Shown here: one piece after another, positions 5,573 through 43,560 of the stretch | Numbering within the stretch: the stretch's first letter is position 1 | Layout: the number at the start of each line of letters is the position of its first letter | Origin: Paramacrobiotus metropolitanus | Taxonomy: Eukaryota > Tardigrada > Eutardigrada > Parachela > Macrobiotidae | Reading direction: 5' to 3' | NCBI RefSeq assembly: GCF_019649055.1 | Contig: NW_026570552.1 | Coordinates: 1 to 46,553, forward strand | Length of the DNA: 46,553 nucleotides | Position numbers and translations under genes: made by a program | Notes under the pieces: generated by a model | Databases searched by the model: none | What the model was told of the DNA's origin: nothing | The model's input: the letters and a program-made list of their open reading frames with translations, nothing else

Positions 5573-6719
5573 TGCGCGCTCTCTCGAAGCAATAAAGAAT
5601 ACGAAGCTCACTGAAACTGGAATATGTTTTACTGCAGTTGCTGCTAGGCAGGAAACTTCCACTCAGACTCAGAATGTGCGTCTGTAAATAAAACTGATTC
5701 CTGATTTCCTGCAATGGAGCAAAACAGTGCAACATGAACTAACAAAGCACAACTTCTGGGCCTCTGGCATCCACAATCCCTTGTATGCACGTAACGACGA
5801 CATAGGGCGGTCGTGCGCTGCGCACTCGAGCAGGTAACGTCACTGTGCAGTGTGCACAAAGGTTTCACTTCCTTTTTTGGTTTTAAAACTCAACCGGCAA
5901 CAGGTTTTTTACAGGAAACAGCCGAGAAACGGACGACGGAGTATCTGCGCCAGCGGATCAGCATCGAAGGCTAACGCGGAAACGCTGCTTCTGTCATGGG
6001 AACAGCTCCAGCATCGGCTGATTTAGATTTTAGACGAATATTCTGCGTTCTGCCGCATATGTACTGTATCTGTATTCCCGTTGTCGACTGAGGCAGTGTA
6101 ATCGGTGAAAATCTACTTTCATAGATAACTTGTGAAGGTTTTTGTACCGCCATGACTTGTATATAAAAGCATTTCTATATGCTACAGATTCTTTATCCGC
6201 TTTTCCCGTTATTGTACTTGTACTTGCTCTTTAACGATAAATACAAAATCACCGTCTTTACGTAATTCCCTCAATTGTTGTGTACTGCGACATGTGGAGC
6301 TTTAGTAGCGTTCTGAAGTTTAACCAGCATCAGATGTACGATCGTACTAGTACAAATTAAAGGGATATGCAATACCCTGCATTATTTAGAGATACAGTAA
6401 TTTATTATTCCTTTTTAACTACATACAGATAGAACTATGAGGCCGGCGCCGGCATGAGCAGCACATTTGTGGCAATTTTTTGGATGTAAAATGCAGCAAA
6501 CAAAGACCAACTCCCATTTCTCGTTTAAAATACGTCAACAAACAAGATAATTGTTACAAAAACGCTAGAATATAGATATACAGTTCTGCATGAATTGCAT
6601 CCGTAAATAAAACGCCCAGAATGTGACCTTTGAGGCTTTGACATCGTCGTTCATGTCCGGTGATCCTGCTGCTGCAATGTAACTTGTTAATACGTTTTCG
6701 TATGAAAGGTTAATCTTTA
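5573..6719. other. Intergenic, upstream of ARMT1
   Basis: No gene recognised. The part next to 5573 should hold the ARMT1 5'UTR and promoter. A 60-codon minus ORF at 5971-6153 has no motif I know. A GC palindrome (GCCGGCGCCGGC) lies near 6443-6454. The stretch ends at the 9-bp target duplication of the TIR element that starts at 6720. Confidence 0.35.
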
Positions 6720-7544
6720 GGAAACCGTTATAGGCACCCCCTAAAACCCCCGTTTATTATGGGCACCCCGTTTTCGCACCCTGTTTATTATAGGCACCCA
6801 TTTTGAATTAAATAAATGTGAACGGAATATTATTCACATACTCCAAAAACTATTTTTATTGTTTCGAACAGTTCCTGTGACCGTACAAACTTCAAACTTA
6901 CTATGGACAAAAGGTCAACGTAATTGGGTTGTACATACCTTTACATATTACATATACATCACTGCATCAGTGATTCTGGTTCTCAATATTGGCAAATATT
7001 CCCAGGCTTTAAGAGATTTGGCCCGGTGCATGGTACCAGATTCGTGTACAAACATGCACAAAAACTTCCGCTTTCGCGCACTCCGAAACATTTCTTTGCT
7101 TTGTTTTATGACATTCTGTAGCCAAATGGTTTGTATACACTGGCGTAAAAACCATTTGTGCGCGCAACTTCCGATTCGGGAGTTATGGCTGCTCGAAAAT
7201 TCCAAAAAGTTTAAATACATTCAGATGTACCAAAACTCTCGTTAATAGTCGTTATTAATCAATCTCATTCGAATTTCGCAAGGAAACGCACAGAAGCATG
7301 AAGAGCAGTTTTAGACCGAACGTCCGCAACAGAGCGGAAAAAGTGGATCGTGGACCCGTGGTGGCCGCCAGAAAAAGTTATTGTACTACGTATTATCAGA
7401 ATAAAACTGCACTACTGTACAGTCTGAGAATACTGCATCTGTTATATATCGTATTAATTTAAAAAGGGTGCCTATAATAAACGGGGTGTGAAAAGGGGTG
7501 CCTATAATATACGGGGGTTTTAGGGGGTGCCTATAAGGGTACCC
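6720..7544. mobile_element. Non-autonomous TIR element with motif-array termini and a 9-bp target duplication
   Basis: An 825-bp element flanked by TAATCTTTA on both sides (6711-6719 and 7545-7553). Its ends are inverted repeats of about 85 nt (6720-6805 and 7463-7544), sharing TTATAGGCACCCCC near the tips. Each arm repeats a short unit, (T)TATAGGCACCC or GGGCACCCC, two to four times separated by ...CCCCCGTTTATTAT-type spacers, so the terminal repeat is itself a small tandem array. A 9-bp duplication fits the Mutator-like (MULE) superfamily. No transposase is inside; the interior instead holds a TTAA-bounded repeat of another family at 7009-7245. Confidence 0.75.
7009..7245 (+). repeat. Single-arm copy of the TTAA repeat family, nested
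   Basis: Starts TTAAGAGATTTGGCCCGGTG and ends at a second TTAA (7242-7245). It aligns along most of its length with one arm of the fold-back element at 9814-10500: GGCCCGG, CATGGTACCA, TTTCGCGCACTCC, TTATGACATTCTGTAGCCA, TTTGTGCGCGCAA, GTTTAAATACATTCAG. Short ORFs here are repeat shadows. Confidence 0.7.
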
Positions 7545-7600
7545 TAATCTTTATGGCGCTACTTTTCTACGTACTACGCTACTTTTTCTTTTTTATCTGC

Positions 7601-10600
7601 TTAGCCGTGGCCCGAGGTCCGTGTTTCCTCAACAGAGGCCAGCTCTCCCGATCCAGCCGGATTATACATGAAAGCGTGATTAGGTGACGTATTAGACGGT
7701 CTCGCCTGAAACCGCTTATAACGCTGCCCCAAACAAGCCCCCAAGCTGGAGCGACAAGCCTGCCGAAACCGTGCGGATAGGATTGAGTATAAAAAGGGAT
7801 TCACCTATAAAGGACAAAGTGAAGATAGATGCATGCAGTTTTCATTATGTACAGTAGTAATACATACGACCGCCCTGAAAGATGACGGAATGCGTGCCTG
7901 TACAGGAATATGGATGTATCAATAACTAACTAACAATCATTGATATGTAAAAATAATTTTATACGTTTACATTTATACACATACGTACTCTCCTCAAACA
8001 TTTTAGAGCAGTTTCGGAAACATATGCATATTTCGACGTTAATGTGTATTCGACTTTATGGAAACGAGAAAAACATCGATTGTCAAAGGCTTTTGGCAAA
8101 CGTAGCCCATGCTGCACCTACCGTAGCTGCACCGTAGTAAAACACACCTGTATAACGAAGAAAAATAATTTTTATGAGTTGTCAAAATAATATTTTGTAA
8201 ATCGATCATTAAAATTGACTTGCTATAGTAACTTGACTGACGCCGGCGTAAATCGTTATACCGCATAACTGACAGTAAATGTTGCGGTGTAACTCGCTTG
8301 TGTGTTATCATTAATGTAGAATTTCTCACGATTATGTAAAATGTGTTAAAAATTTTGTTGCTCATTACGCGAATAAAAAGTCATCGAGACAGTAAATGCG
8401 TAAGCTATGTATCTGTACAACAGAACATTAGCAGCATGCATGCACTAACAATGCTAATTACTTTATATGCACTAATTAATCGTAACAAGTACTCGTATGC
8501 TCATTTACCGGATATATAAAGCAACACGCGATTAACCGCTAAGCCGACGGAATTCCAATCTTTTTCGTAAACGGAATGAAGGCGCTGCATATTAAATAAG
8601 CGGAAAAAATTACGTTAGCTACAAATATTTTATAAGCTTTGTCAAATGTAATCAGCTTCGGAATCTCTAACTTACTTGTACATGGAATGGGGCATAACAA
8701 AGAAAAAAAGCAACCCCGATTGCCACTAAAAATAGATGAACAAAATAAAGGTCACCTGTCTTCTCGCTAGGGTCTACCAGTTTATAATTAATGCTCAACG
8801 TGCTGTAACAGAAGTATTAGTCCGAGTATAATGGCAGTCACAATACCTGGTCATTGTCGAAAGGATACATAATGCTATATTTGGTTCGAGCATGATTTTT
8901 TGTACGGTATGGTGGTTTACTTACATCTGCACGCAAACTTATTACACACTACACATGTCGTCATGCATACTTCTATGATATCTGTGTATGCCGTGACCTA
9001 CCCAACATCCTGAGTATAGCCTTATGTGCCTGTGTTTTTTCCGTATCCCCCGCCGCGTCGTCAGCGGGGCTTTGTTTTTTTGGTATAAGATTATGTGATA
9101 ATCGCCGTAAATGAACGGTGATAAGAATGTGTAGAACAATGATGATCAGCATCGGTGCGAAGAAGAAGAGAAAAGTGCTAATTTGCAATACTATTTCGGT
9201 TTGACCAGCCCGTGCGGTACAGATGGCTGATTCCGGTATCAGTGTTCCCGGCTGGAGGTGACTGGTCCAGTCAGCGTTTGTGGGATATGGGAACTCGTAA
9301 ACATAATGTGCGAGAGCCAACACCGCAGCAGCGCAAAACGCCACAATCCATATCATGATGACCGCCAGTGCGGCTCGCCAGGTTTTAGCTTGGAAGTGGA
9401 TACTTTCAAACGGGTGACAAATGGCAATGTATCTGTGCATAGAAAATCTGCTACACTAATCATTTCCAGTTTTATACAGCAGTAATTTTGCTTAGATGTG
9501 AATTTTCTTAGATCGCTCCTCGTATTATTTTACGAATATCAGACGGCGTTAGTTCATTAAATTTCACTCTGTGATCGAAAGGTCAGTTGGGGAGTGCACA
9601 TTCACAGTACGCACTGTCGCAGTTATAATCCCATGCATGGTTGTGACAAATATGGCATGCAGTGTGCGGTTCTCCGTCTCCCAGCCGACCTTTTATTCTG
9701 CCTTATACAACGTACTTAAAGGTGACTTGAATTTTTACTCGTTATGCACCGCTGTGGTTAAAACTTTATGGAACAGCATAATTTTTATAAAGGCATGACA
9801 GAGGGCAGCTTAAGGGAAGTGGCCCGGTACATGGTACCAAGTTCGTGCACATGCACGGAAACTTTCACTTTCGCACACTCCCAAACACATTTTTGTTTCG
9901 GTTTATGACATTCTGTAGCCAGATGATTTGTACACACTGGTGTGAAAACCGTTTGTGCGCGCAAAATCCGGTTCGGGAGATATGGCTGTAAGAAAACTCC
10001 CAGAAGTTTAAATGCATTCAGGTGTACCAAAAGTCTCATTCTGGACCGATCTCCTTCAAATTTTGCACGTAAATGCACATGACCATAAAGATCGTTTTTA
10101 CACTGATCCAGACTTCCACGATTTTTTTCAAATTTTAAAATGAATTTTAACATTTTTGAAATTCATTTTAAAATTTGAAAAACATGCTAGAACTGTGGAT
10201 CGGTGTAAAAACGTTCTTCGTGGTTATGTGCATTTACGTGCAAAATCTGAAAGAGATCGGTCCGAAATGAGACTTTTGGTACACCTGAATGCACCTTTTT
10301 GGTACACCTTTTTGGAATTTTCTAATACCCATAACTCGCGAACCGGATGTTGCGCGCGCAAACGGTTTTCAGGTCAGTGTATACAAATAATTTGGCTACA
10401 GAATGTCATAAAACAAGAGAAAAAAGGGTTTGAGAGTGCGCGAAAGTGAAGGATTCCGTGCATGTACACGAATTTGGTACCATGTACCGGGCCACTTCCC
10501 TTAATTATTACTGTATAATTACGAGATGTTAGCAAATGTCAACATGAGCAAAACTGATTACCTTTCAACCGCAAAAGCAAGAATCGTCAGGCAGCTCGAT

Positions 10601-22606: not shown

Positions 22607-25600
22607 ATGGATCAAGAAAAAGCGGGAACGTCTTCTGTTCCCCCGACCGTCAGTCGTGCCTCGGTGCGCTCCCGTAAGCGCACGCAGACATTTCGCGCCG
22701 TCATCGCGAGGGCCAAGAGTGTCCTGCATCCAGAAGACTACGAGGGCCTGAGAAACAGCCCCGATCCGGAATTATCGCGCTCCAATAAGAAGATGAAACT
22801 TCTCCCGCACATGGAGCATGAATTGCGGCAAGTGACGGATCTATGTCTGGCGGAACAGTGGCATGAGGCACTGGCCAAGTTTGAGCGTCTCCCGGTGGAG
22901 CTGTGTACGGCGGCCGTCTTGGCGCAGTGTATCACCTGTTATATGCGGGTGGGCCAGAACGGAAAGGCGTTCGAATTGGCGGAGCGTTTAGTGGAGATGG
23001 AGAAGCATTCGCGGGCCGCGTGGGAAACGTATGAACAGCTGGCCGGAGAGCTGGAGAAACAAGGGCAGCAGCTGAAAGCCTGGAAGGCCTTAGTGGACTT
23101 GAAAGACCTGTCGGATGAGGATAGACTGAAATATCTTCGGGAAATCGATAATGCGATCGAGGTAATACATGATTTAAATTTTGTAAAACTGTTATCAATA
23201 TTAATATTTTTATTTTAATTTTTGATTTCTTCTGACGATATCTTGCTTGCACATTAGCGTACTGTACAGCACTTCGATTAAAGTGCTGTCTGTTCATGCT
23301 CGCACTATTTGTACATACGAGTTGTTCGTATTCTGTGCTGAGGCTATTAATTTAACAATCGGAAAGTATTTAATCGAAAATTTGTTCACAGCTAAAATGT
23401 GTATCGGCCTTCTAAAATAAGAATCTCTCCAATAGCTTCTTTATTACGCCTTTAAAACATTTGTTATTGTAGCTTTTGATTTTGTTCTGGGTCTAATTTT
23501 TTTTCCATAATTTAAAATTGAGCCATCATTTAAGGCTTCGGCAGCGAGAATTAGTGCATTTGAATGATTTGATGGATCGTAATTGAGTACGTACTGATAC
23601 AAGCGATACGCATGAAATAAGAATTTAAAGAACTCCGTAATGTAATTAGTAATAATTTTTGCGGTTCGTTTTAGTTTTTTTCTGGTTTTACTAGTTCTAG
23701 ATGTTTTTTTTCAGTAAAATTTTTCATTAAGCAGTAAAACAATGAGGGGACGAATGCTTGTTTAACTGCGAGGAAATGACAGTTGAGGAGTGTTTTAATT
23801 TTTTAGGACAACAATTTGGAGGGCAAACTGAAATACTCCCTACAGCTGTTGCCGTTGGAAGTGCGACACTGCTCGGAAGAAGACTCCATTCCACTGCACG
23901 TCAACATTGCCAAATACTATCTGGCCTTGAAGCAGCCGGAGGAAGCGGTGAAATTCCTGACCGAATTTGTCCAGCTGATGTTATCCCGTGTCCAGGATCT
24001 GGGCCGCGATACCGCCACGCAGGAAATGAATATCCGTCCCGCGGTGATGCTCCTCCTGACGGCCTACCTGGACTGCACGCGCCCGGACGATGCCGCGTCG
24101 CTGATTATCCATGATGCGGAGATTGTGGAGATCTTCCACACGGATCGCAAGAGTGGCGAACGGCGCCGCACGTTCTCGTGGCAGAGTGCGGAGGAGGTCA
24201 GGATTAAGGAAGAATATGCTGGGGATGTGGGATTGGTGGCGGCTATCTGTACGGCGTTGTTCCAGACAGATCAGACCAAATTTCCTCTGGTTAAGAAACT
24301 CATTGGCAGCCATATTAACCCCGCGAATACGCCCGTTAAGACGACTACAGTGTAAGCGGTTTTGTTTTAAGTTTTATACGCCGACTTTATGCAAGTGTGT
24401 ATATTGATTGCTGTATTTGATTTTTAAAAAAATATCTTTCATACAATATTTAGGCTAATTTGTTGTGTTATTAGGTAGTTTTATTTTGCTTATGTGTACT
24501 GTAAACTCATTTTCAAAATTTCCGGCATAGAATATTTTTTTTCCGAGAAAGCTATATTTGCACTTTCTTCATATGATTATACTGTATACATGATATAAGG
24601 TTTCTGAAGTATGACTTTCCTGTTTTGAACTGTTTTGAATTACTGTAAATCGAACGCCGTTGAGCTTTATTGGTAAAACAGTTTAATTAAGTTAATGTTT
24701 CGTACCACCGAAACTATTCATAATTGACTGCCAAGACCTCAGAATTAAGATGTGTTTTGCAATCTGTTGTAGAATGAATGTCGATGTACGATTGTGACTG
24801 ACTCCGCAAAGAATTTGTTGGTTTATTTCTATTGATTTTAGTGAAATCCAGACGGACCAGCGTGATCAGCTGCTGCGTCTCGCCCGCGCCTTACTCAACC
24901 ACGGCCAACCGCAAACCGCCCGTGAAGTGATGAAGTACATCACCACGGTCATCTTCGCCACCTGCACCGAGGAGACGCACTTCTTCGCCGGCACCGTCCA
25001 CGAAAGCTGCCAGGATGTCACGGCGGCACTGCACTCCTACGACATCTGTCTGACTAAAAAGCCCGACTTCCGGCCTGCGCAGTTGCGTATGACCGCCCTG
25101 GAGATGGAGTTTCCCAACACGGTGGCCGTGTCGACGTTGAGCGATAATGTTCGCCAGAAGCTCGTCGCCGAACAGCTGATGGCGTATTCCGACTACGTGA
25201 ACTGCCGCTTGTTGGAGCGCGCCGATGGATTGGTGGTGGCGAATGTGTTGAAGATGGTGGAGAAGAGTTTTGAAGGGGCGGTGACCATTGAACCGGGGAA
25301 ATTCCTGTGGGCGCTGCATACTCCGTATGCGTTGGAGAAGGGACTGAAGAGGTATTTACTGTCGGCGCCGGTGTTGGCGGAAAAGAAAGTGAAGTTGGGA
25401 GAGTTTTGGCGAGCGATCATGGACGGTTGCTGTACGGCGTTCAAAATGCATAGGTAGGTGAAGTGAAATTTAACGATTCAGTAGCGCGATTGAATTTGTA
25501 GAACTAGAAATTATGGTTATAATTTTTTAGTGGTTAACCTATATTTTAATTTTGAAAATAATGTCATAAAACAGAAATGTTTTTGGGTTGTTTTTGGGGT

Positions 25601-33943: not shown

Positions 33944-33950
33944 AGCTGCA

Positions 33951-34838
33951 CCGTAGTCAAGCTGAACAGACAGAGCGATAGAGCGCAGAGAGAGTTATCA
34001 AGGTCCGGCCGCGCTATGATCTGCCTATGCGCAAGCATTCGCCGATGCGATGACTGTGCAAACAAACCATTCTATTGTCTTCGGGACCCGGTGGCCATAA
34101 AATACCGGGTCCGGTGACATAGGCAATTCATATTAGTCTCTGCCTGACCAATAGCTATCGTAAAAGTGAGCATGCCTGACCAATGGCTATCGTGAATCGA
34201 GTTCCAGCATCACACTGGAATTACCAAAACCAACTACTAATACAAGTCAATGGTTATAAAACAATCTTCCTGTGAAACTGCTAAGGCATCCATTCCCGAT
34301 AACATTATTAAATCGGTTATCATTATTAACTGATCAAGATAAACTTACATGTCCTACAAATGTTATGACATCGCACTTATTATAACAACACTGGATCCGA
34401 AGAATACTTTGTCATTCCTGACTACATTAAATGTAGTCAGGAAATTATTATTAGTAATTAATGAAATTTTCATTAATTACACATAACATATCAATTTATA
34501 CACATACAAATAGCATATTATTATGTCACATTAATTTCATGGTTATTGTGCTTATATCTAAATCCACATAGAATTTAAATTTTGTACACTTTAATAAGCA
34601 ATAGCCACCAGATAACAACAGGGATATTTTGAATTCACGAGCGCTATGTGTAGCTGCAGTCTAGTTGTAAATGGAATGAGTAAACTGGAATACGTGGCAT
34701 TTGGAAGGCTAGAAGCCCTCCCTCTGCCTGGTTCTGAGGTGGGGCTTGTGCTCTTACATCGCATCGGCAAAAAGTTTCTACGCTCTGTCCGGACCTCTTA
34801 TAAAAGTACTTAGCTCTGTCTGTTCAGCTTGACTACGG
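33951..34838. mobile_element. Fold-back TIR element abutting the ACP7 stop codon
   Basis: A perfect 26-bp terminal inverted repeat begins CCGTAGTCAAGCTGAACAGA at 33951 and returns as its complement ending at 34838. Weaker inverted similarity continues inward ~120 nt (AGGTCCGG, GCCGATGCGATG). CTGCA directly flanks both ends (33946-33950 and 34839-34843), a possible 5-bp target duplication. The interior has a 20-nt direct repeat (GCCTGACCAAT-GCTATCG, near 34143 and 34172) and two palindromes near the centre (34417-34490). No coding capacity. Confidence 0.7.
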
Positions 34839-34852
34839 CTGCACCGCAGCGA

Positions 34853-35789: not shown

Positions 35790-38190
35790 CGCGTCCGATC
35801 ACTTCGGCCGCACGTGATGACTGCGGCCGACGTTCAGTTCGGCCGAGGCTGAGTTCGGCCGGCAGGCCCGGCACTCATTTCGGCCAGCGCTAATTTCGGC
35901 CACAGGACATTTCGGCCACAGGACGAATATGGCCGATATACTCCGTGGCTGAGGCAACAATAGAAAATGGCGTCTTGTGAGGATTTAACCAATCAATTGC
36001 TATGGACAGAGCTCTGATAACTGCGTTTTCCCATGGCAGAAAATTTTCCTTATATGAATGTTTAATTTCTTTCGTTTCGTTTTGCTGTTAATTGTTTCAA
36101 CCGTTCCCTGTTAATCAAAGGTCATTTCTAATGCTTTTGTTGAGTTTGAGCTGACAGCGTAATTATATCGGAGGTAAACGTTTTCTTATACGAATCGTAG
36201 AGGAAAAGTATTAGTCTTTCATGGTTACGAATATATCGAGGCGCGAAAAAGAGGAGAGACAAAGACCTAAGTGTGCGAGCTGTGGCGATGCCACGAGAAA
36301 GACCACTGCAAAGCTCGGCTTCATTATAACGGAGGCACACCAAAAGAGCTTGGACAGCACTCGCATGCACCGGATATTGCCAAAGCGACGGGAAATGCTG
36401 TTAGAGAACAGCTAAAAGCCCGCGCAAAGGCTACAGTGGAGAGGCCCCGACAGCTCATTGAAGAAGTGAGGAACGCAGCTTCACTCACCACGACTGCGCA
36501 GATGCCGAGTTACGGAGCCCTTGCCCGGGCTGTTCGACGTGAGTGCAGAGAAGCGGGCATCCCAGCGACACGTGTGCGGGACCTTGCAGAAATTGACGTG
36601 GAATTTTTTAAAAACGAAACTCCTCGCGATGAAAACGTGTTTCTGGAGGATACCGGCGCACACGATCAGAATCGGATCATAGTGTTTGCAACAGAAGCGA
36701 ACATCAGGCACCTGATGCGGTCATCTGTGTGGTTGAGTGATGGTATGTTCAGCGTTAGTCCACCTGTGTTCCGGCAATTATACACTATACACGCCGACGT
36801 GTATGGAGCAACGGCGCCGTTAGTATACGCTCTCCTCCCAGGAAAATGCGAGTTGCTTTATACGCGATTATTCCATATTGTGCACGACGCTCTTGTTCGG
36901 TTGGTCAGACAGGGCAACGTCGGGCCGAAGCACATGATTATGGATTTTTAACAGAGCGCCATAAAGGCGTTCAGCACAATATTCCCGGAATCCAAAGCTA
37001 GAGGCAAGTAAAATCAGAATGGACATTTTGCAGTTAGTTTACGTTCTCATTTATTCGTACATTGTTCTGTTGTATTGAAACTACTGTATATCTTGCTAGA
37101 CTTTATGGACCTTCCATGCAGTGCAATAACAAACTCTTTTTTATACAGGCTGCAACTTCCACTTGGGGCAAAGAATACATCAGAAGCTGGTTGATCTTGG
37201 CTACAAACTGGCTTATGCGAACGATGCCGACTTCAGCCACCACTGTCGCATGGTATTAGCGCTTGCTTTCGTGCCGACAAGCGCTGTCAGACGGGTATTC
37301 AATGAGGTGCTTTGCAAGCTGGGTTTTCCTTTTTGCCCCACTGACGATTTTTTCCAATATATTCGAACGTCGTATATTGGCCGAACCGTCGTTACCGTAA
37401 CCTGGTGCGTAGATAAAGAGCCACTCTACGCAATTGAGATGTGGAATTGTTACGAAAGACTCCTACAAGACGTTCATCGAACGACAAACCGACTCGAAGC
37501 TTGGCACAAGACCTTTGCGGAAACCGTCGACAAGGATCATCCCGAAATCTATCAATTTTTCCACCTGTTCTGCCGGGAAATATCGCACCAGGAAACAGAA
37601 ATTCCAAGCCGTATGACAGAAGAGGCTGTGCCTAAACCGCGGCGATAATAAGTACAGGTAACCAAACGGTTGAAGAATGTCGCAGGAAATTATGGACAGA
37701 TGACCAGTATGGAGTATTTGGAGTCGGTTGCGAAAAAGCTTAAAATTTTGTTGAAGAAACGCGCAGATATAAAGAAGCAGAAGCGCGTGCTAGCCACCGA
37801 GTAGCTGATGTTGGGTACTTGTTTTACATGTAATGCAACTTCTTTCTTTCACGCAATGCAGAGTTTCTGTTTCTCATCAGAGTCAATGTTATTGGTTTCA
37901 TGCATTTCTGTATCATACCTGATAAACTTTGTATCATCGACTATCACGAGATATTTTTTTGCCATTTCCGTTTGAAGTGACCTTGTACAATATCTTCTCT
38001 TGGTTCTTGAACATTTGACTGTTAGCCAGGACTAATCGGTTCGTCTTGCTGTTAGCAAGGTGGCAATTAAAGTGAATATCATTGATACGTAGACCGTCGG
38101 CAGAATTATGCGGCCGAAGTGAGTGGCGGCCGAAAACTTTGGCCGAAATGAGCGCGGCCGAAATGAAAACGGCCGAAGTGATCGGTAGCC
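35790..38190 (+). mobile_element. Decayed Mutator-like (MULE) transposon with TTCGGCC-array ends
   Basis: Termini are inverted: the left begins CGCGTCCGATCACTTCGGCC and the right ends as the complement of GGCTACCGATCACTTCGGCC. Inside each tip, TTCGGCC recurs every ~12-20 nt: 7 or 8 times at 35797-35940 in one sense, and as GGCCGAA about five times at 38110-38180 in the other. The body holds a FLYWCH/MULE transposase relic. I find no target duplication (GACTGAAAG left, CACCACGGA right), so one end may be rearranged. Confidence 0.7.
36208..37804 (+). pseudogene. MULE transposase with FLYWCH zinc finger, interrupted
   Basis: The frame starts in a FLYWCH-type zinc finger: VLVFHGYEYIEARKRG, then a TAA (36268-36270), then LWRCHEKDHCKARLH and the HSH pair. 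A linker follows, then the transposase core with VWLSDGMFSVSPPVFRQLYT and YGATAPLVYALLPGK, the MULE DDE region. A second TAA (36949-36951) stands in MDF-QSAIKAF, where the family has an acidic residue (DFExA). An intron at about 37004-37148 with a GC donor (GCAAGT) and TATACAG acceptor restores GCNFHLGQRIHQ. The C-terminal half reads LALAFVP, YIGR, EMWNCYERLL, RTTNRLEAWHKTFAETV. Two more stops (TAATAA, 37646-37651) precede a last in-frame stretch ending at 37802-37804. Four in-frame stops mean no full-length product. No ATG opens the frame upstream of the FLYWCH. Confidence 0.8.
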
Positions 38191-38369
38191 CACCACGGAG
38201 ACGGGTACGGGAGATGGAGGATCACAAATTCACAGTGCTACTCAGTAACGACTTGGATGGGAAGGATTGTGATGCCCGCCGCACTAATCGTGCCAAATGA
38301 AGGAGACAGAGAGGTCACTCGACGCAGAGGATTGGCGACCTTAGAGAGGTGTTTGATGTCTACCTGTTT
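38191..38369. other. Spacer between the two MULE-type elements
   Basis: About 180 nt with a higher GC content than its surroundings and no motif I can name. It was contiguous with the sequence beginning at 39339 before the second element inserted, as shown by the target duplication. Confidence 0.4.
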
Positions 38370-38479
38370 GGAATTCTCCGCGCCTGATCACTTCGGCCGC
38401 GTTACATTTCGGCCGTGGCTCACTTCGGCCAAGGCTCGATTCGGCCGACGCTTATTTCGGCAACCAGACGTTTCGGCCT

Positions 38480-38656
38480 CTTAGGTTTTCTTGGGTTTCC
38501 AACGTTTTCTAAATTTTCTTAGGTTTTCATATGTTTCTTATGTTTTCGTAGGTTATTTACGTTTGTTATGGTTTCTAAAGTTTCTTAGGTTTCTTGGGTT
38601 TCTTAGTTTACTTAGGTTACTTAGGTTTTTTAGGTTTCTTAGGTTTCTTAGGTTTC
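38480..38656 (+). repeat. TTTCTTAGG-type simple repeat
   Basis: Degenerate tandem units of about 9-10 nt (TTTCTTAGG with TTTTCTTAGG variants), resumed at 38869-38920. A 100-codon ORF over it (38491-38793) translates to RFLRFLRFL and is a repeat artefact. Confidence 0.8.
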
Positions 38657-38855
38657 TTAAGGGAAATGGCCCGGTACATAGCGTCAAGAATGGGATACAT
38701 ACACCAAAACTTTCGCTTTCGCGCACTCCGGATTATTTTTTTGTATTACTTTGTGTCATTTTAAAGCTAAATAATTTGTATACATTGTTGTGAAATTAAA
38801 ACCGTTTGCGCGCGCAACATCTGGTTGCCGAGGATATGACGTACGTACTAAGAAT
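38657..38855 (+). repeat. Truncated copy of the TTAA repeat family
   Basis: Begins TTAAGGGAAATGGCCCGGTA and follows the arm of the 9814-10500 element: CTTTCGCGCACTCC, TTGTATACA, GTTTGCGCGCGCAAC. Similarity fades after about 38850. It sits inside the TTCGGCC element. Confidence 0.7.
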
Positions 38856-39338
38856 GGGTTTCGAGGTTTCTTAAGTTTTTTAGGTTTTCTTATGTTTTCA
38901 TAGGTATTTTCATTATGTTTTCCCATGTATCGTACTGTTAAGTTTTCAGTACTCTCCCGTGACGACGATCCGTGAGATTCTGACATTCTGTCATCCGCCT
39001 TATAATGGTCGACTAGTTGTTAATCAGAGCAATCGAGAAAGGAGGACATGATGGTGATGTTGACTTTTCAAAAATTGCTCATCTTCAAACAAATTGTTCG
39101 TACAAAACCAGATAGAAAGTTAGAAACCGATCAAAATTTTGCGTATAACGAGAACTTGCAAGGTACTCGTACAGATTGAAAGTTTTGGTAAACCGTATTT
39201 CCGCCGAAATGTACCATGGCCGAAATGAATGACAGCCGAACTGAATGGCGGCGTAAGTGAGCGGCGGCCGAAAAACTTTGGCCGAAATGAGCGCGGCCCA
39301 AATGAAAACGGCCGAAGTGATCGGTAGCCGGAATTCTC

Positions 39339-42300
39339 TTAGTCTAGTTCTGTTAAACTTCTTGCTCTGTCCGAACCGGTTAGCGCCATTGCGCGTTAAA
39401 ATAAAGCTTGCGCTCGCGTTTGCGAGCTGCTGCATACGATCTGTCTGTTGCAGTATATCAGCCTTTATTGTCCTGTGGTTGGTACAATTCAAGATCGTCG
39501 GTACATGTTGTTCACAATTTCACGAAAACAATCAAAGTGTTAAGTAACTGACAACAAGGCAACTTTTTGGCGCCGCAAAAAAGGGCAAGCCGACCTGCAC
39601 ATCACAATATATATAGCCTCCATTGTATCGTCTGTCACCTCAGTCCTGATTAGCGCATTGCTGAGCATGTAAACCAAACTGTTTTCGAAACAACTAGCCG
39701 AATAAAGCAATCGCACAGTATAGTACCAAAAAGGCAGTCATCAGTACACATTATATTCAGTATTTCTACGGACAATTTTATCATGGACGAAAGAACGGAT
39801 TTTTGTGCCCCGAGTAAGGTTAGTTTTTGGCTTGGCTTTAGAATTCCTTAGCAGTTAGTTCGAGAAAAACTTTCACCTGTGTGCAGTTCGAAACCAACAA
39901 TCATTTTACTACTTTTGCTTTTGTACTATAGTATTTTTACGCATATAATTTGTAAATAATAGGTAAAACCTGTTTGTGCGCGGATAATCCAGTTGCTGAG
40001 ACATTGCGAATTAGGAAAACTGATAAAATGTTTAAATGCGAATTTGAAAGAGTGGTTTTGAAAAAGCTGTGTTAAAAAATACAACAGTTGGCTACTTTCG
40101 CGCGGAGTGCGAAGTCAACTAGCGATTTTGATGGAAAAAATCGCTACTTTCTTTGAAGTGTGATTGAAATAGAATAGTTCTGTTTTGTTTGCAGCGAAAT
40201 CTAAACTCATGTGTTAAGCTCGGTCATGCATAGAGCCTACAGAAAAGGTAAACTTTCGCCCGAAGTGCCAAGCTGACGCACGTTTTTACGGGGAGAGTTA
40301 CAGTTACTAGCAACTTTAAGAAACGATCAAAATATTTTTAAAGCACTGGGAGCATCGCTTAATAATAAATGAGTAAATGTACTTAAAAACACGTTTGTGT
40401 ATCGTAGAAGATGATGAATTCTATGCCTACTTCGCGCGGTGATTTAAAATAATTCATTTATGGAAAGTAGTCAAAGTACTGTGAAAAGTTCAGGGCAGGG
40501 CACGTTTTTCTTATTGCTTGGCTTTGATTATTTTCTGAAGTTTTCTTATTTTCTTTAATGTTTTTATTTTCTTAGTTTTTGTTACTTCCTCAGGTTTTCT
40601 TACATGCCGTTAGCTTTTGTTGTTAATCAATCTACTTACAGGAATGTTTTAAAACTAGTAGACCCCGCGCAAACTGCGCGGAACAAATCAGCTGTAAATA
40701 ATTTACGTCATTTACAGGCTGCTAAGACTCAAATTATGATTGAGATTCTGATAAGAAGAATACGGATCACAATTACAAATTCTGTATTTTATTTTCGATT
40801 ACCTGTTGCAACTTGCAGTTGTCCTGATAAAATTATCTATACTTCTAGGGTAGTACAGTATGGCTGACACCGCGTAAAGTGCGCAGAGGAAATCGGCTGT
40901 TGCCTGATGATAAATGCAATTAAAATAAAAATTACCGCATTTGCTAATAGAGTTAACTTCGTTGACAAAACTAAGTTATTACCGAATTGAGTTATTTTTT
41001 CCAGCGGTAAGTGGCAATCCCACACCAACTAACTACTTAATACTTAACTATCTTTAAAAGGCTCAATTATTTCAGTCTTGCAGAGCTGGCTGATAAACTG
41101 TAAAAAAAACTGCCAAACGATGTCTCATTCGATTGCTGCTCCTCCTGCTTAGCGAGCTCCGCTCGCGCAGCAGCTCCGCTTCGCCTTCTGTAAATATCCG
41201 TTTTTTATTAATAATTTTGAAAATACCGTTTTTCATCGGTATAATACGAAACTAATGAAACAGTGACTTCGGAGAAAGGGTTACTTAACTTGAAACTACC
41301 GCAAAACATACGTATCAAGCAACCACCGTTATCCCGCAGCTACTTGATAATTGGTACTGCCAGGCTGCCAGCAAGATTCGCGACGCATGCAGCTGTCACT
41401 TGGGACACTTCCGTAAGTTCCCTGGGTCGTTTGTGAGTTCGGTTGTCAAAATGACTTAAACCTTTCTTGAGTCTAAATTTTTATGATCCTTAAACCCACC
41501 GCTATTAAAAAAGGTTTCTTAAAACCTTTGCAGACCGAAATATCAAAATAAACAAAATTTTTCAAAATTTGTTTCACGATATAACCCGCGCGCGCAAGCT
41601 CTGCACTTTAAGGCAGTTAGTACTTTAAGTCTTCGCGGATTGGTTGTGTTGGGGTTTCATAGACGTCGTATGATAAGGTTTTTTACAGTTTCCTCTCAAA
41701 CGATGTTTGTTTTTTGAAATCCGAAAGCTGCGGGCTCATCTACGAAATCAGCGCTATCGAATGATCCGTAAATGTTGAATATTGATCCATCCTCCGATTG
41801 TGGGGGATTTGACAGACTCGCTGGTCACGCGGTCACGCCCCCTCTTAATCTATAATAAAATATAATATAAAGGATTTATTTTTTAATATAAAAGATTTAT
41901 TATAAAGGATATATAGGATGGAGTAAAATTAGGGCAAGCGTTATAACCTACCGGGCCGCTCAACTCGTGAACGGAGTGCCGGCAGGTTCCGGCCAAATCC
42001 TTAAATATAAAATTACATAATACAATCCAGGTGTTTTAATCTTTATTAAGCTACGAGTAAAATGCTTAAATCAATTTTCCATACTCGTATACCCGGTAAC
42101 TGATCTGAAGCGATTCTGCCAACAGCGCAACAAGATGCGACGATCTTAATCCCGGGTAAAATAAGCTTTTAATTTTGTGAAAAACGCAAGCAACCACTCT
42201 TTCTCGAACGCCCCTTGCAAGGCTTTATACAGATACATTCTACTCTGTTTCTGCCCAGTTAGACAGACTTTTTCTCTGCCAAACACTGATTCTCGAAACT

Positions 42301-42984: not shown

Positions 42985-43560
42985 CGAGTGCCGGTCAACC
43001 AAACTACCGGCAGCGTCCAGTGTACGGGGCCCGTTAGGGGAACGAAACCGAGCAACCGGCACTGTCCAGGGTACGGGGCCCGTTTGGTGAGCGGGTGATC
43101 GAGCTACCGGTACAGTCCAGGGAACGGGGCCTGTTAGGTGAGCGGGTGACCAAGCTACCGGTACTGTCCAGTGTACCGGACCTGTTTGGTAAGCGGGTGA
43201 CCGAGCTACCGGTACTGTTCAGTCCACAGAGCCCGTTAGGGGAACGAAACCGAGCAACCGGTACAGTCCAGGAACGGGACCCGTTAGGTGGGCGGGTGAC
43301 CAAGCAGCCGGTACTGTCCAGCGCAAATGTCCCGTTAGGTTAACGAGCTAGCCGGTGACCGAGCTAGCGGGTGCACAATGCCCGTTAGGCGAATGAATGA
43401 CCGAAATACCGGCACTGTCCAGTGCACAGATCCCGTCAGGTGAAGGAGTGACCGAACTGCCGGTACTGTTCAGTTTACGGAGACCGTTAGGTGAACGGGG
43501 GACCAAGCAGGCAGTTCTGTCCATTGCACAGATTCGTCACATGAACCAGTGACCAAGCTT
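42985..43560 (+). repeat. Minisatellite with a ~51-bp unit
   Basis: The phrase CCCGTTAGG (variants CCTGTTTGG, CCCGTCAGG) recurs at about 43028, 43079, 43129, 43181, 43232, 43281, 43331, 43381, 43432 and 43483. The consensus contains GTGACCGAGCTACCGGTACT and GTCCAGTGTACGGGG. About 11 diverged units, fading at both edges. ORFs on either strand here (for example minus 43034-43303) reflect a unit length divisible by three. Confidence 0.9.

Follow-up and report, generated by a model that had tools for sequence, protein, structure and literature searches.

Of the 12 Aedes aegypti MULE families with long terminal inverted repeats (TIRs), 10 are described as carrying short subterminal tandem repeats, and a FLYWCH finger is reported for 13 of the 14 MULE families (PMC5225508). 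The TIR of one of these mosquito elements, Muta1, includes nine copies of a 12-bp repeat with 3–4-bp spacers and thus has a pitch of 15–16 (PMC5225508). Similarly, Tm1 of Meloidogyne is described with mostly 9-bp target duplications, asymmetric 7-bp end motifs and 1–9 units of mostly 14 bp, together with a Phantom-type transposase comprising FLYWCH and MULE domains, non-autonomous copies, and a copy, Cg-1, that is without duplications (PMC3169594). The reason why animal MULEs end in repeat arrays can be sought by experiment. Transposase binding to Foldback and Phantom repeats was untested according to a paper from 2013 (PMC3688188), and among the matches listed in the open-licence literature we recognized, by title or start of the abstract, no binding test on such repeats.

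Here, we analyzed a stretch of 46,553 bases (hereafter the window), in which two adjacent elements are bounded by arrays of the motif TTCGGCC. We consider them very probably two members of one Foldback-type MULE cut-and-paste family with a Phantom-type transposase layout; one of the pair bears a transposase but is dead, and the other is non-autonomous. The elements and their arms are:

35790..38190, plus strand: element 1, MULE copy of 2401 bp with a transposase, recognized by common tips and arrays and by FLYWCH and MULE domains
38379..39329, no strand assigned: element 2, non-autonomous copy, 951 bp, transposase not found
35790..35917, plus strand: L1, left arm of element 1, with tip CGCGTCC, GATCAC and 7 units (6 exact)
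38099..38190, minus strand: R1, right arm of element 1, with tip GGCTACC (outside-in) and 6 units (5 exact)
38379..38478, plus strand: L2, left arm of element 2, with tip CGCGCCT and 6 units (5 exact) at 16-bp spacing
39202..39329, minus strand: R2, right arm of element 2, with tip GGCTACC and 8 units (4 exact)

TTCGGCC occurred 26 times in the window, compared to a mean of 4.32 in shuffled sequence (largest value 10; none of 100 shuffles reached 26). The four arms held 20 of these copies, while the other six were scattered singles, two of which fell within the coding region of element 1. Counted over 160 nt per arm, there were 6 exact copies in L1, 5 in R1, 5 in L2 and 4 in R2, or 7, 6, 6 and 7, respectively, when up to one mismatch was allowed; for each arm, none of 1000 dinucleotide shuffles equaled its count by either measure. 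Read outside-in, GATCACTTCGGCCG was identical in all four arms and was followed by further TTCGGCC units, and in L1 the tip block was present again once, in decayed form, at a 19-nt period. We placed 27 units in total, 6–8 per arm (7 in L1, 6 in R1, 6 in L2 and 8 in R2), with 20 of them exact, six carrying one mismatch and one carrying two. This set retains one in-register R2 site with two mismatches; the two further two-mismatch sites, TATGGCC at arm position 138 of L1 and an R2 site overlapping a better unit, were omitted. The units were spaced by 13–16 bp in all arms except for one spacing of 19 and one of 25 bp, both in L1; in L2, each of the five spacings was exactly 16 bp. The arms are therefore TIRs made of short tandem subrepeats, as in Foldback-type elements. 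With counts beyond those of all shuffles and GATCACTTCGGCCG common to the four arms, these data confirmed what an earlier note on this DNA had claimed, namely that the TTCGGCC arrays form the inverted ends of two adjacent elements.

Arrays of this kind could also be a satellite or minisatellite that lies here by chance. Indeed, they resemble a tandem repeat with a period of 16 bp, and Foldback terminal repeats can seed satellites, as described for Tetris (PMC4079207). Nevertheless, their inverted arrangement, the common 14-nt starts and a 9-bp duplication at equal offsets make this explanation extremely unlikely. The earlier note had itself named arrays that lack transposon ends or target duplications genome-wide as the mark of a satellite, which was not borne out in the window: its 46.5 kb contain no other TTCGGCC array, and element 2 has duplicated 9 bp. 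This duplication was identified by comparing the flanks of the arms:

38370..38378, no strand assigned: left 9-bp target site duplication of element 2, GGAATTCTC
39330..39338, no strand assigned: right 9-bp target site duplication of element 2, GGAATTCTC

The two copies of GGAATTCTC are perfect over 9 bp, within the 8–10 bp of target duplications in the Mutator superfamily, and are located at equal offsets, 7 nt outside the GATCAC (left) and the GTGATC (right) of element 2, which fixes the limits of this element at 38379–39329. In a control with random position pairs, 1 of 200,000 matched at 9 of 9 bases; with offsets left free over 25 × 25 bases, 27 of 19,957 random pairs had a common stretch of at least 9. 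Given that the placement of GGAATTCTC sets the ends of element 2, the 7 nt at its two extremes differ from each other (read outside-in, CGCGCCT at the left end and GGCTACC at the right), and the same 7-nt rule puts element 1 at 35790–38190, with the tips CGCGTCC and GGCTACC. The outer limits proposed earlier, 35790 and 39329, are thus element boundaries according to the duplication of element 2 and the common tips. The tip described in the earlier note is refined here in that the outermost 7 nt lie outside the inverted repeat.

A target duplication of element 1 was not found, with 2 of 9 bases agreeing at the predicted place, which falls short of the 8–10 bp expected in the superfamily. Since target duplications of transposons can be lost, the assignment of element 1 rests on its transposase and the common arms. 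We also considered a start of element 1 at 35809, as suggested by the doubled L1 tip and an imperfect duplication of 6 of 9 bases. This candidate was rejected, as 1228 of 100,000 random pairs equaled it; it was further disfavored by the array not being continued beyond R1, as judged by eye.

The common tip block in all four arms would likewise fit a single composite element spanning 35790–39329, with the middle arms as internal repeats. We regard such a composite as very unlikely. No 5-mer was common to the flanks of L1/R1, L1/R2 or L2/R1 within 25 bp; the outermost pair, L1/R2, therefore lacks a common repeat of at least 5 bases, whereas L2/R2 has a perfect one of 9 bp. In addition, the tips of both inner arms are complete, and the intervening 188 bp had no other match in the window at E 1e-3.

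The transposase remains of element 1 comprise two predicted exons:

36178..37003, plus strand: predicted exon 1, encoding the FLYWCH finger and the beginning of the catalytic domain
37004..37148, plus strand: predicted intron of 145 nt (donor GCAAGT, acceptor ATACAG), based on sequence; joining the frames raises the MULE score
37149..37648, plus strand: predicted exon 2, encoding H, W and E of the catalytic core

Predicted exon 1 contains in-frame TAA codons at 36268–36270 and 36949–36951, and the FLYWCH finger is broken by a stop codon. When the pieces were cut at the stops, MULE was not matched in Pfam up to E 1, and FLYWCH was matched only weakly (E 0.049). Exon 1 alone, with the stops read through, scored 27.2 bits for FLYWCH, above the cut-off, and 24.3 bits for MULE, below it. 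The read-through spliced protein matched MULE (PF10551) at E 1.9e-8 and 35.1 bits (Pfam cut-off 27.6) and FLYWCH at E 9.6e-6 and 26.1 bits (Pfam cut-off 23.6), so that the MULE cut-off was passed only with the stops read through and the predicted intron removed. In this predicted protein, D188, D256, H280, W374 and E392, placed by motif, provide the DDE triad with the additional H and W. Their spacing (D-D 68, D-H 24, D-E 136, W-E 18) is within one residue of that of the active mosquito MULE Muta1, for which we computed 69, 24, 136 and 18 from the residue numbers given in PMC5225508. Because of its domains, residue spacing and in-frame stops, we conclude that the gene of element 1 is a broken MULE transposase. 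The term autonomous-type, used for this element in the earlier note, is therefore apt for its ancestry, to which the transposase remains testify, but not for its present state with two in-frame TAA codons. An N-terminal FLYWCH finger in a MULE transposase, a feature of the Phantom subclass, was found (26.1 bits against 23.6), and the Phantom label, which we apply as a prediction, is based on this layout of N-terminal FLYWCH and MULE/DDE domains. Together, the domains and arms support the description of MULE-type elements with motif-array terminal repeats, one with and one without transposase remains.

Since Galileo ends are similarly rich in repeats (PMC3688188), a Galileo-like Foldback element of the P superfamily was considered as well. 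The probability of this assignment is negligible, as the protein of element 1 matches MULE and FLYWCH, and Pfam, searched up to E 1, returned no THAP domain for it. The satellite, the composite element and the P-type element were all rejected on the duplication, the flanks and the domains. Other searches were negative: IMG/VR yielded no relative in protein searches with exon 1 up to the second stop (36271–36948) or with exon 2, a PDB sequence search gave two matches at chance level (E 0.26 and 0.41), and NCBIfam gave no match.

In element 2 a transposase was not found. Its between-stop pieces, searched separately against the window by tblastn, matched only themselves, apart from one match at E 0.039 to 22940–23083, which is outside both elements. 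DNA likeness between elements 1 and 2 was confined to the arms. Adjoining the left arm is a minisatellite:

38479..38659, plus strand: 9-bp minisatellite TCTTAGGTT in element 2

This minisatellite is followed by a passenger sequence (38660–38832), copies of which, 73–77% alike, are also present at 7009–7319, 9810–10106 and 10200–10504. The latter two form the inverted pair of a fold-back at 9810–10504, and the copy at 7009–7319 lies within the element at 6720–7544 described below. A weaker copy (72%) is located at 39942–40039, outside element 2. Two ORFs over the passenger sequence had no Pfam match above the cut-off.

When all 64 inverted-repeat pairs of the window were scanned for 9-bp direct repeats at equal offset, two had one, namely element 2 and a pair at 6720–7544. 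The latter is a further transposon that is built in the same way but from another motif. Its flanks (6711–6719 and 7545–7553) carry the 9-bp duplication TAATCTTTA, its 8-nt tips are asymmetric (GGAAACCG and GGGTACCC), and its terminal repeats comprise about three ~30-bp units whose core is TATAGGCACCC-like. The right tip of this transposon, GGGTACC, is similar to the GGCTACC of elements 1 and 2. Another small transposon is perhaps present at 33945–34846, where 26-nt perfect inverted repeats enclose 836 nt and a 9-bp direct repeat, GCTGCACCG, occurs close by at unequal offsets. At 42998–43495, about ten 51-bp units are arranged in tandem in G+C-richer DNA. Host-type coding pieces, presumably exons, are found between 2834 and 28359 and include ARMT1-like, two rhodopsin-type receptor, two cytochrome P450, M17 aminopeptidase and DSS1/SEM1 pieces. 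Among 10 ORF pieces picked for scanning from the 59 ORFs of the window, seven passed the Pfam cut-off, and their identities point to an animal host.

What might the TTCGGCC core be for? Over the 27 units, which were selected by their core, pairwise identity was 92% in the core and 33% in the six bases after it. As these units had been picked by motif, we repeated the test on L2, using the 16-nt register of this arm. There, the conserved columns clustered on the core, to an extent reached by 52 of 20,000 shuffles of the column order. The G.TCA preceding the core was moderately conserved over the units, and the recognized site may therefore exceed 7 bp. Between R1 and R2, three of five substitutions fell in cores, which make up 35 of 82 columns (hand count on the alignment), meaning that the newest changes show no core protection. 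This pattern fits the decay of dead copies, with no sign of current selection, and we read the core as an old functional site that is now decaying in dead copies. With cores kept and spacers varying, transposase binding at the core is plausible from the sequence, and by analogy with Galileo we judge it the likeliest role of the repeats; TTCGGCC is, in our estimation, fairly probably a transposase-binding site.

The arrays might, on the other hand, have arisen as a side effect of slippage, or they could function in transcription or in the binding of a host factor rather than of the transposase. In keeping with this, MULE terminal repeats are described as also carrying promoters (PMC6446971), recent substitutions do not spare the cores, and both the number and the spacing of units vary. 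Yet the cores were kept while the spacers diverged, and arrays are present at both ends of element 2, where no transposase was found; moreover, the long repeats of Galileo hold tested transposase-binding sites (PMC3688188). We therefore consider slippage, transcription or host-factor binding possible, though rather unlikely.

If the core is a transposase-binding site, transposition could proceed as follows. Each end is composed of an asymmetric 7-nt tip, GATCAC and an array of ~16-bp units with a TTCGGCC core, with the opposite end inverted. An intact copy elsewhere would supply the transposase in trans, the FLYWCH finger of which would recognize the units, and the array would raise the specificity and occupancy of the end. 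The transposase would then cut at the tips, insert the element and leave a 9-bp duplication. Element 1 is now dead, its duplication having been lost or never kept, perhaps by recombination between elements. The earlier proposal that binding is both by FLYWCH and cooperative is, as a joint claim, doubtful. More specifically, we tentatively hypothesize, at less than an even chance, that the FLYWCH finger of Phantom/Foldback-type MULE transposases reads TTCGGCC and that several transposases, bound to alternating faces of the helix along an array with a pitch of ~16 bp, recognize the end cooperatively. If true, this would directly explain what the repeat arrays of animal MULEs do. The 7-bp core with varying spacers gives this family a ready site prediction.

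We also looked for relatives by the arm sequence itself. The pattern of GATCACTTCGGCCG plus TTCGGCC, searched in IMG/VR and prokaryote genomes, hit one viral and 19 bacterial stretches but no relative; these 20 loci had 51–74% G+C and at most three same-strand copies per 100 bp, and were therefore taken as chance. Among the matches listed for TTCGGCC with ‘transposon’ in the literature, none seemed by its title to concern MULE ends.

The architecture of these elements is not new: the papers on Tm1 of Meloidogyne describe it, as do, for most of its points, those on the Aedes MULEs. Element 2 shares with Tm1 the asymmetric 7-bp ends within 9-bp duplications, followed by subrepeats, a likeness of architecture only (PMC3169594). 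The FLYWCH finger here ends in H-x-H, as judged by eye, while that of Tm1 is reported without the final histidine (PMC3169594). The Tm1 motifs A1/A2, C and D, as given in that paper, were not recovered in the four arms. Motif C in its 15-nt form matched at best at 10 of 15 positions, which 91 of 500 random 160-nt pieces also reached, and motif D at best at 7 of 12 in each of the four arms, which all but 45 of 500 random pieces reached. The best scores of the remaining motifs are plain match counts: 10 of 14 for the 14-nt form of motif C (in R2), 6 of 7 for motif A1 (in R2, away from the end) and 5 of 7 in every arm for motif A2, which in R1 lies at the tip with a shift of one base. Judged by motif sequence, the elements described here would belong to another family than Tm1 but of the same kind, with a remote kinship possible. 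Like Galileo, they have long, internally repetitive TIRs, those of Galileo containing several experimentally shown transposase-binding sites; unlike them, the Galileo transposase has a THAP domain and belongs to the P superfamily (PMC3688188). Tetris/DAIBAM of Drosophila virilis similarly has Foldback-type tandem-repeat ends, 8–10-bp duplications and a suggested Mutator membership, but its repeats are ~220 bp long and its transposase is not known according to the description (PMC4079207). The Aedes MULEs, including Muta1, are likewise animal MULEs with 8–9-bp duplications, a terminal motif, subterminal tandem repeats and many non-autonomous derivatives, a likeness drawn from the described layout and the catalytic spacing (PMC5225508). 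Muta1 differs in that its copies are intact and active and its terminal motif is a 10-bp imperfect palindrome (PMC5225508). Measured against these descriptions, the element pair is an ordinary but tidy example of a design known from mosquitoes and root-knot nematodes.
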